From Rhodospirillaceae bacterium (GTDB lineage: Bacteria > Pseudomonadota > Alphaproteobacteria > Thalassobaculales > Thalassobaculaceae), in NCBI GenBank assembly GCA_018699735.1, contig JABIRP010000295.1:1-37689 (forward strand): a stretch of 37,689 nucleotides of DNA. Direction: 5' to 3'. Positions 24,635-26,918 of this stretch are shown here, piece by piece. The notes beneath the pieces are model-generated. The model made no database searches, was not told the DNA's origin, and saw only the letters and a program-made list of their open reading frames with translations. Within the stretch, counting starts at the first letter, position 1. Every line of letters starts with the position of its first letter. The translations under genes were made by a program, and so were the position numbers.

Positions 24635-25015
24635 TCAGCCCATCGCCATGAAGATCGCCAGCGCCGTCAGCACAGCGGTGGCGACCAGCACCAGGATGCC
24701 GGAGCGCTGTGCCGCGTCGAGGTCATAGCCATACCCTGCATCCCAGAACAGATGTCGGATGCCATTGCACAGATGGAAGAACAGCGCCGCCGCGAAGCCG
24801 ATCATCACCAGAGATCCGAGCCACGAAGTACAGATCGCCACCGCAGTCGCATAGGTCTCCGGGCCGAGCGCCACCGCTAGCAGCCAAAATGCGATCAGCG
24901 CCGCCCCGGCCGTCAGCGCCACGCCAGACATCCGATGGGTAATCGACAGGATCGACGTCATTTGCGGGCGATAGATTTGCAGGTGCGGCGATAGGGGCCG
25001 ATTGGGTGTGCTCAT
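24635..25015 (-). CDS. sdhC: Succinate dehydrogenase cytochrome b556 subunit
   Basis: The frame is open to 25255, but the ATG at 25015, preceded by GAGAGGG, gives the normal 126-residue protein; the longer version adds a non-family leader. The signature RPLSPHLQIYRP and SITHRMSG (residues 7-31) and the heme histidine in HLCNGIRHLFWDAG (His81) are plain, with three membrane helices near 30-50, 63-85 and 104-125. It anchors the complex and helps bind quinone. It is the first gene of sdhCDAB; its leader of more than 200 bp leads back to an AT-rich region with DnaA boxes. Confidence 0.95.
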   Translation of the reverse strand: MSTPNRPLSPHLQIYRPQMTSILSITHRMSGVALTAGAALIAFWLLAVALGPETYATAVAICTSWLGSLVMIGFAAALFFHLCNGIRHLFWDAGYGYDLDAAQRSGILVLVATAVLTALAIFMAMG

Positions 25016-25400
25016 GCCTGTTGCCCTCTCGTTCGGATTGGCTGACGCTCGACGCGCTCTCGACGAACTCACAACGTGTTCTTGTGGCGCGAATCTTAAT
25101 GCGAAATTCGTCTCCTGGCAAAGAGCCGCACCCGCCCCGGCCAGCCGACTCCTTATAAACCCGCGCTGATGCGAATGAAAAGCGATATCGCCCGCGCGGC
25201 TCACGAGACCAAAAGTCAAAATCGAGCGAGCATACTGCAAACAAACATACCTCAACTTACCGACGAAGATGTTGATATCGAAATAAAAATATCCTATTCT
25301 CTTTAGATTGAATTGTGGATATGTCTGTGGATAAACTGTTAATTAAATAGAATAAAAATAAAACTGACACTTTCCTAATTTTTTTATTGACGATTTCTGC
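25016..25400. promoter_or_regulatory. sdh leader and AT-rich divergent control region
   Basis: No convincing gene lies here. The part next to sdhC (25016-25255) is GC-rich leader, and 25256-25400 is sharply AT-rich, including a run of A/T from about 25335 to 25390, unlike the rest of the window. It probably carries the sdh promoter on the minus strand and a promoter for the structured region on the plus strand. TTGACG at 25387-25392 could be a -35 box, but no good -10 follows at the usual distance. Confidence 0.55.
25314..25334 (-). promoter_or_regulatory. Two tandem DnaA boxes
   Basis: Read on the minus strand, 25326-25334 is TTATCCACA, a perfect consensus DnaA box, and 25314-25322 is ATATCCACA, one mismatch away. 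They face the same way and start 12 bp apart, close to one helical turn. They border an AT-rich tract that could melt. DnaA would bind here either to control sdh or the neighbouring RNA, or as part of an origin. Confidence 0.65.
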
Positions 25401-25405
25401 GTTTT

Positions 25406-25885
25406 GTCTGACAGTTACTTCAGACGCGTGGGATCGTCGTAGCCCCGCTGAACATGGAAAGCTGATCAGCCCCTTCCCGGAATGAGAGGTTTTCCCGAGC
25501 TCCTTGGAGCAGGTTTCGGTGGAGTTGGTCAACGCATCATGCTGTTCCGCTTCGGTCTCCGGTGGCGGGCAGTGCGTGGACCTCGCGAACTCGCGGAGTG
25601 GATTGTCGCGACATCGGCTTCGGCCGGCGGCGCGACAGGGTTCGAAGCCCAGGTGTCAAAACCCAGGTTTCGAACGCGGAGCGCGCCGATTGGCCAAGGT
25701 GGGCGCGCCACTGGATCCACAAAGCGGTTTGCGTCAGAGGGTCACGCGGTGCGAACGACCGTTTGGTGTCGAAGGTAAACCGGCGGAGTCCGTGCCAAGA
25801 CAGTCGCTTTGGTGAATGTCGGCACTTACGAAGATTAAGCGCGTCGGATGGGCCTCCCGGGCAACCGGGAGGCCCCTCTCGTTTT
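25406..25885 (+). ncRNA. Candidate large structured RNA (unknown family)
   Basis: A chain of perfect inverted repeats fills this stretch. They are GTCTGA/TCAGAC (25406-25425), GCTCC/GGAGC (25499-25510), ACGCA/TGCGT (25532-25577) enclosing CCGC/GCGG and CGG/CCG, GTCGCG/CGCGAC (25605-25636) enclosing CGGC-TTCG-GCCG, GTTCGAAGCC/GGTTTCGAAC (25640-25675, one G-U), and GCGCGCC/GGCGCGC (25681-25708). CGGTTT/AAACCG (25725-25782) follows, enclosing smaller hairpins, then GTGCC-AA-GACA/TGTC-GGCAC (25792-25825), and last a strong terminator. A stable UUCG loop and nested stems suggest a folded transcript on the plus strand. Consensus parts of RNase P RNA, tmRNA and SRP RNA were looked for by eye and not seen. 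Frames of about 100 codons cross it but look like no known protein. Covariation evidence is lacking. Confidence 0.45.
25850..25885 (+). terminator. Strong Rho-independent terminator
   Basis: GGGCCTCCCGG (25850-25860) and CCGGGAGGCCC (25865-25875) pair perfectly over 11 bases around a GCAA tetraloop, followed by CTCTCGTTTT. It reads rightward, yet no recognised plus-strand gene lies upstream, which supports a plus-strand transcript from the structured region. Confidence 0.85.
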
Positions 25886-25904: not shown

Positions 25905-26010
25905 TTCGTCATCCTGAGGCGCCCGACCACCGGGAGGGCCTCGAAGGACGCACACCGCCACAATGTTGCGTCCTTCGAGGCTCGCTCTGCTCGCACCTCA
26001 GGATGACGAA
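25905..26010. repeat. Nested palindromic repeat (CGTCATCCTGAGG family)
   Basis: Outer arms TTCGTCATCCTGAGG (25905-25919) and CCTCAGGATGACGAA (25996-26010) are perfect over 15 bases; inner arms CCTCGAAGGACGCA (25939-25952) and its complement (25967-25980) are perfect over 14. This layout is a known dispersed repeat type in alphaproteobacterial genomes. It lies just downstream of the CitE-like gene and may end its transcript. Confidence 0.85.
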
Positions 26011-26039: not shown

Positions 26040-26918
26040 TCACCCCACCTGCATGCGCTCTATCAGTTCGGCCATTGCAACCAAGCGCTGGGCCTCGGCA
26101 ACATGTAGGGCCTCGACCAGTTTACCATCGACCAACAACACGCCCTTTCCCGCCTCAGCCGCCTCGCCATGGGCGATAATGATGCGTCGGGACCAATCCA
26201 ACTCCGCCTCATCCGGCGCGAAAACACGGTTGGCGGCCTCGATAGTCTTCGGGTGGATGAGCGTCTTTCCATCGAAACCAAAATCCAAACCCTGCCGGCA
26301 TGAGGCCTCAAACCCGGCATCGTCGGCAAGGTCGAGAAACACGCCGTCGAGGATCGCTAACCCGTAGGCCCGCGCCGCCAGCATGCACAGGCCAATGCTG
26401 GTGACAAATGGTAGGCGATCCGACGTATGCCGAGCGTGTAGATCCTTCGCCAGGTCTGACGTCCCCATGACCAGACATCCGACACGTGGGCTCGCCGATG
26501 CGATCGCCTCGGCCCGTAGCATTGCGAGCGGCGTTTCCATCATGCACCAAATGGCGAGGCTTTCCGGCGCCCCCGCCGCAACCAGCGCCGCTTCTGCCCG
26601 TTGGACCGTCTCTGCATTCTCAACTTTGGCCAAGAGCAAGGCATCCGCACCCGAGGTGGCGGCAAAGACCAAGTCTGCGTCTCCCCATTCGGTCTCAAGC
26701 GCATTCGTGCGAACCACCAGTTCGCGCTCGCCGTAGCCGCCATAAGAAATTGCATCGCCAATCAAATCCCGAGCCGTCTGCTTCGCCTCGGGGGCCACCG
26801 CATCTTCCAGATCCATGATGATCACGTCAGCCGGAAGCCCTCGGCCCTTCTCCAGCGCACGCGGGTTAGAGCCTGGCATGTAAAGCACCGAGCGGCGCGG
26901 TCGGTGAGAGGCGGTCAT
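26040..26918 (-). CDS. HpcH/HpaI aldolase / CitE-like CoA lyase
   Basis: The ATG at 26918, preceded by AGGAG, gives 292 residues; the frame open to 27077 would add a stretch without family features. It has the CitE/malyl-CoA lyase pattern: RSVLYMPGSNPRALEKG (9-25), IIMDLEDAV (33-41), Arg70 in VVRTN, LAKVENAE (97-103), the metal ligand Glu128 in CMMETPLA and Asp155 in GTSDLAKDL. Such enzymes split or join CoA esters of hydroxy-acids (malyl-, methylmalyl-, citramalyl-CoA). No citrate lyase subunits are nearby, so a free-standing beta-hydroxyacyl-CoA lyase is likely. It is divergent from pdxY across a TetR-type operator pair. Confidence 0.88.
   Translation of the reverse strand: MTASHRPRRSVLYMPGSNPRALEKGRGLPADVIIMDLEDAVAPEAKQTARDLIGDAISYGGYGERELVVRTNALETEWGDADLVFAATSGADALLLAKVENAETVQRAEAALVAAGAPESLAIWCMMETPLAMLRAEAIASASPRVGCLVMGTSDLAKDLHARHTSDRLPFVTSIGLCMLAARAYGLAILDGVFLDLADDAGFEASCRQGLDFGFDGKTLIHPKTIEAANRVFAPDEAELDWSRRIIIAHGEAAEAGKGVLLVDGKLVEALHVAEAQRLVAMAELIERMQVG

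Follow-up and report, generated by a model that had tools for sequence, protein, structure and literature searches.

What is encoded in the gap between sdhC (24635-25015, minus strand) and a citE-like gene (26040-26918, minus strand), both read leftward, in the 37,689-nucleotide stretch of DNA analysed here (the window)? An earlier note, made from the sequence alone, had described positions 25406-25885 of this gap as a hairpin-rich region without a recognisable protein that ends in a rightward terminator, and had proposed it as a candidate new structured RNA. No recognisable protein was found in the sdhC/citE gap and the frames crossing it gave no Pfam match, in agreement with that description, while the proposal of a new RNA gains support from the lack of an Rfam match, the lack of a protein and covariation among homologues. 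Judged by sequence comparison, the locus is a previously undescribed structured regulatory RNA, and a conserved loop points to the ccrM mRNA leader as its target.

The RNA gene and its fold

The structured non-coding RNA gene lies on the plus strand and is predicted to extend from about 25420 to about 25885, with the start placed by a promoter and the end by a terminator. The promoter (25387-25416, plus strand) consists of a −35 element TTGACG (25387-25392), an 18-nt spacer and a −10 element ACAGTT (25411-25416), and falls just outside the left edge (25406) of the region first described. In 12 homologues the same architecture stands equally far from the closing stem (−35 TTGACG, TTGCNC or TTGATC; 18-nt spacer; −10-like ACAGTT, ACTATT or ATAGTT), and their alignment places the predicted transcript start directly at the closing stem. 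The intrinsic terminator (25850-25885, plus strand) is as had been claimed, with an 11-bp stem (25850-25875) capped by a GCAA loop and followed by CUCUCGUUUU, and the opposite strand carries no T-run there. The RNA therefore possesses a promoter and a terminator of its own, as an independent gene for a trans-acting base-pairing RNA should. Directly to the right of this terminator, the window holds a REP-like palindromic repeat element (25905-26010) with inverted arms of 18 and 15 nt (CGTCATCCTGAGG...CCTCAGGATGACG), parts of which recur on other contigs of the same genome.

The hairpin closed by a UUCG tetraloop was found at 25615 as described. The argument from the number of inverted repeats stood in part: perfect 7-mer inverted repeats exceed chance (10 observed vs 2.6 ± 2.0 expected, 0/500), but by our own count the terminator stem contributes 5 of the 10, making this evidence weaker than claimed; 6-mers gave 19 vs 9.4 ± 4.2 (11/500). 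In folding, the plus strand beats every dinucleotide shuffle both with the terminator (z −6.5) and without it (z −5.25), and the minus strand reaches z −3.6. The single-sequence minimum-free-energy fold of the window copy is partly wrong, since the conserved 3' domain comes out misfolded; forcing the conserved helices on this copy costs 4.8 kcal/mol of 236.

When whole genomes were searched with the stretch, relatives within the family proved to share one near-invariant core, ACCGGCGGAGTCCGTGCCAAGACAGTCGC (window 25779-25807); of 36 Thalassobaculaceae genomes, 15 carry a homologue, among them Nisaea and Thalassobaculum. Elsewhere in the class, core matches were isolated, had 2-3 mismatches and were about as frequent as those of control patterns. 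Scanning of about 85,000 species genomes gave 11 loci; those named to genus or family are Nisaea, Thalassobaculum and Thalassobaculaceae, which identifies the RNA's family as Thalassobaculaceae, and the others belong to alphaproteobacterial or proteobacterial MAGs. By these searches the RNA is confined to Thalassobaculaceae, a family of marine alphaproteobacteria. It occurs in a long form of about 430 nt (the window genome, G010, G003, G013, Thalassobaculum and others) and a short form of about 130 nt (Nisaea), both ending in the 3' domain that is followed in most cases by a terminator.

Because plain MAFFT alignment misaligned the stems of the 3' domain (25765-25826, plus strand), a covariance model (R1) was used. 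Although built from Nisaea copies alone, it gave 60.6 bits (E 2e-14) for the window copy and detected most of the long forms as well. The alignment built with it has 96% pairing cells and 5 pairs changed on both sides; its covariation score of 0.285 compares with 0.114 ± 0.017 in shuffled alignments (0/500) and falls to 0.01-0.10 when the structure is slid. In the window the plus-strand stems of this domain are 25766-25772/25819-25825, 25779-25782/25810-25813, 25783-25786/25804-25807 and 25788-25790/25799-25801; the last of these, 3 bp long, together with its loop CGUGCCAA forms the predicted antisense seed GUCCGUGCCAAGAC (25788-25801, plus strand). The closing stem joins GACGCGT (25423-25429) to GCGCGTC (25839-25845), both on the plus strand. 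It was examined by an arm-swap in which the 5' region of each species was set against the 3' region of every other species, with distance from promoter and core as the sole basis for choosing the regions. Native arms paired best except for 17 of 5040 permutations (exact permutation); a version with hand-picked arms agrees but is biased. The arms differ between clades yet pair. Together, covariation and the arm-swap support the RNA structure, and gene and structure alike emerge from comparison between genomes.

Long forms carry an extra hairpin presenting GGCCAAGG, placed in the window at 25681-25708 (plus strand; GGCCAAGG at 25692-25699, stem 25681-25687/25702-25708, the stem drawn by eye), with GCCAAG in all long forms. 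The GCCAAG motif is common to this hairpin and the seed, and the hairpin could bind the same target as the seed, or another.

Known RNAs were searched for with Rfam at gathering and permissive thresholds, and the window's only match, weak and at chance level, was to BjrC68 over the terminator; 7 homologous loci were likewise without match. RNase P RNA and 6S RNA are, like this RNA, large structured bacterial RNAs with closing stems, but neither model (RF00010, RF00013) matches the locus and the true genes lie elsewhere in the same genome (contigs C324 and C334, respectively). ARAGORN and Rfam gave no tmRNA match. These searches exclude RNase P RNA, 6S RNA and tmRNA.

Complementarity to the ccrM leader

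All 14 nucleotides of the seed are invariant among homologues, a prophage copy included, and the invariance extends to its 3-bp stem, as a pairing seed would require. The exact complement of the seed, CTTGGCACGG, the sole complement tested, was searched in three genomes of three genera. Genome-wide it occurs 16, 7 and 10 times, at or below control and hence without enrichment, and ccrM is the sole gene with a near-start CTTGGCACGG site common to all three genomes. The gene was recognised by NF050803 (E 1e-187 to 3e-192; 623-638 bits, under the curated cut-off of 830) and by PF01555 plus RAMA. In the alphaproteobacterial cell cycle, it is CcrM that sets the methylation clock.

After this three-genome finding, ccrM was fetched by synteny in seven more genomes. 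The site is kept with a match of 10-13 nt in the RNA-positive Nisaea genomes G012, G031, G001 and G027 and in Thalassobaculum G030. By contrast, it is lost from the RNA-negative G002 and G022, congeners of the RNA-positive G013, in which the remaining leader is alignable. The longest paired run is 10-13 nt in 8 of 8 RNA-positive leaders and 6 nt in 2 of 2 RNA-negative ones, a contrast drawn from two RNA-negative genomes of the same genus, which a single loss may explain. Duplex energies are −22.2 to −26.3 kcal/mol in RNA-positive genomes vs −14.2 (G002) and −13.5 (G022) in RNA-negative ones, on a background of −14.1 ± 2.8 over 1460 candidate starts, among which ccrM ranks third behind two GC-rich matches. 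The site forms an island of conservation within an otherwise diverged leader, and an A to G change in G012 preserves pairing as U-G. Relative to the ccrM start, it occupies −23 to −7 in Nisaea and G013, which puts it on or directly ahead of the Shine-Dalgarno region; in Thalassobaculum it lies slightly farther upstream. Start regions of dnaA were at background energy, and dnaA was rejected as a target.

The seed thus matches a site near the start of an unlinked mRNA and co-evolves with it, in genomes other than that of the window, and both the seed and the co-occurrence of RNA and target site emerge from comparison. Pairing of the seed with the ccrM leader is strongly supported by these sequences. 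The comparison comprises the eight RNA-positive and two RNA-negative leaders, with the window genome, G003, G034, G035, G010, G005 and G023 outside it. We infer that the window genome's own ccrM, which was not found in roughly 395 kb of its contigs, carries the site.

Mode of action and the DnaA boxes

The reading that we consider likely is a stand-alone, trans-acting antisense RNA that pairs with the ccrM leader and blocks translation. RNA polymerase would start near 25420 at a sigma-70-type promoter accompanied by two DnaA boxes and stop near 25885, and the transcript would fold into a closed multi-branched structure whose 3' hairpin presents GUCCGUGCCAAGAC. In cells, this seed would pair over 10-13 bp with CUUGGCACGGAC in ccrM mRNA, directly upstream of and overlapping the Shine-Dalgarno region, most likely hiding the ribosome-binding site and so keeping the GANTC methylase CcrM low until late in the cell cycle, while DnaA at the promoter would tie the RNA to replication initiation. 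To our knowledge, the known controls of CcrM are transcription and proteolysis, and a search of open papers found no RNA acting on ccrM. If true, the scheme would extend the alphaproteobacterial DnaA-GcrA-CcrM-CtrA cycle by a post-transcriptional arm. With RNA and target site present or absent together, a single seed and one conserved partner, the family offers a clean natural experiment, and Nisaea and Thalassobaculum are cultivable, making ccrM regulation testable there.

Two characterised alphaproteobacterial RNAs bear on this reading. EcpR1 of Sinorhizobium meliloti, a rhizobial RNA of 101-171 nt acting on gcrA and dnaA, demonstrates that a conserved loop can repress cell-cycle mRNAs (PMC4414408). 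It shares with the present RNA trans action, a strongly conserved loop and pairing near ribosome-binding sites of cell-cycle master-regulator mRNAs (the action and the pairing being predicted here), but the present RNA is about 430 nt long (short form about 130), is limited to Thalassobaculaceae, has a different seed and is predicted to target ccrM. CcnA of Caulobacter crescentus is 182 nt long, lies at the origin, is CtrA-linked and acts through a CCCC loop on ctrA and gcrA (PMC8959179). Like CcnA, the present RNA is predicted to be a non-coding RNA with DnaA boxes, a loop acting at 5' UTRs and a role in the cell cycle; unlike CcnA, it lies about 100 kb from parS and is without full CtrA boxes. 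The features compared here are those described for the two RNAs; in the Rfam search the present RNA had no significant match.

Repression of ccrM translation is the simplest reading, with activation as its main rival: the same RNA would pair with the same leader, but open an inhibitory leader structure or stabilise the mRNA. In some genomes the ccrM leader does fold the site region against the Shine-Dalgarno region, and CcnA reportedly makes the ribosome-binding site of ctrA accessible (PMC8959179). However, these leader folds differ between genomes and are not conserved, and the site lies within about 7-28 nt of the start, a stretch usually covered by the ribosome and one in which pairing as a rule represses. 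We therefore regard activation as unlikely, although a real contender. The large size and elaborate fold of the RNA, far beyond the needs of a seed, raise the further possibility of chiefly a ribonucleoprotein or a protein sponge, with complementarity to ccrM secondary or due to chance, and GCCAAG occurs twice as a loop motif in long forms. Chance is very unlikely given the same gene in three genera and the correct prediction of 5 RNA-positive and 2 RNA-negative genomes, leaving this explanation improbable. RNAs of the GOLLD/ROOL/OLE class of large ornate RNAs are long, highly structured and sometimes found in prophages; unlike them, the present RNA has no Rfam match and carries a predicted antisense seed with an mRNA partner.

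Upstream of the promoter, an AT-rich stretch (25240-25400, with 100-bp bins down to 23% G+C) holds two putative DnaA boxes on the plus strand, TGTGGATAT (25314-25322) and TGTGGATAA (25326-25334), 12 bp apart (25314-25334 as a pair). An exact TGTGGATAA box is found upstream in 11 of 15 chromosomal copies, 5 of which have two boxes exactly 12 bp apart; the boxes are farther from the promoter in Nisaea, and G005 has no clear boxes upstream of the RNA. In these genomes exact boxes are scarce: 820 kb of G021 contain 2, and 395 kb of other window-genome contigs contain 1. Because such rare boxes recur upstream of the RNA, the locus was tested as oriC. In G021 the GC skew flips at about 2.375 Mb and parS lies at 2.380-2.385 Mb, with the RNA at 2.498 Mb, and in G026, G013, G027, G001 and G012 the parS cluster is 100-117 kb from the RNA. 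With skew flip (G021) and parS cluster some 100-117 kb away in these six genomes, chromosomal oriC was rejected; the locus lies near the origin but is distinct from it. The same distances speak against the AT-rich DnaA-box segment being the functional element, as a replication origin or a DnaA-titrating site of which the RNA would be a part. This notion draws on the conserved boxes in AT-rich DNA and the origin-proximal position, but the invariant seed and the covariation reside in the RNA and not in the AT-rich DNA, which a prophage copy of the RNA lacks; we hold it to be quite improbable, though the segment may titrate DnaA. No full CtrA sites were found in the promoter, and GANTC sites showed no consistent placement. 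The antisense RNA is probably expressed under DnaA control, and the boxes suggest that it may be coupled to replication initiation.

Gene order and a prophage copy

The RNA unit adjoins sdhC in the window genome, G003, G013, Nisaea and Thalassobaculum, and lies at a different locus in G010, G005 and G023, with promoter and structure retained (the G023 copy is cut by a contig end). It is absent from the sdhC gap of G002, G022, G004 and G014, and in G002, G004 and G014 a pentapeptide-repeat gene comes directly after, so that the RNA is acquired or dropped as one unit. A rightward pentapeptide-repeat-like gene after the RNA in Nisaea and G003 might suggest a riboswitch or attenuator acting in cis on the gene downstream. 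Gene order contradicts this reading, which is most improbable, since the next gene is leftward in the window, G010 and G005 and the same pentapeptide gene stands without the RNA in G002 and G004. Diverged copies in RNA-negative genomes were rejected, as model matches above E 0.008 lay in unrelated sequence. The 1.5-Mb genomes G020 and G011 (Thalassobaculum genus group), probably of reduced endosymbionts, lack the RNA and gave no 6S match above the search threshold.

Searches for viral, phage and plasmid relatives yielded none that was accepted, the 15-mer matches in IMG/VR looking like chance. A second, divergent copy in the Nisaea genome G012 (contig C15, about 20.5 kb) lies between small phage genes of a prophage that encodes terminase, portal protein, head protease and integrase. 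The seed is retained in this copy, and the 12-bp closing stem is peculiar to it and unrelated in sequence; the copy is without the AT-rich DnaA-box segment and folds no better than shuffles (z −0.1). Its presence suggests that phages may tap the same ccrM control. The full combination, in which a DnaA-controlled RNA directly represses ccrM translation and has been copied by a temperate phage that alters host methylation, is offered tentatively, as less likely than not.
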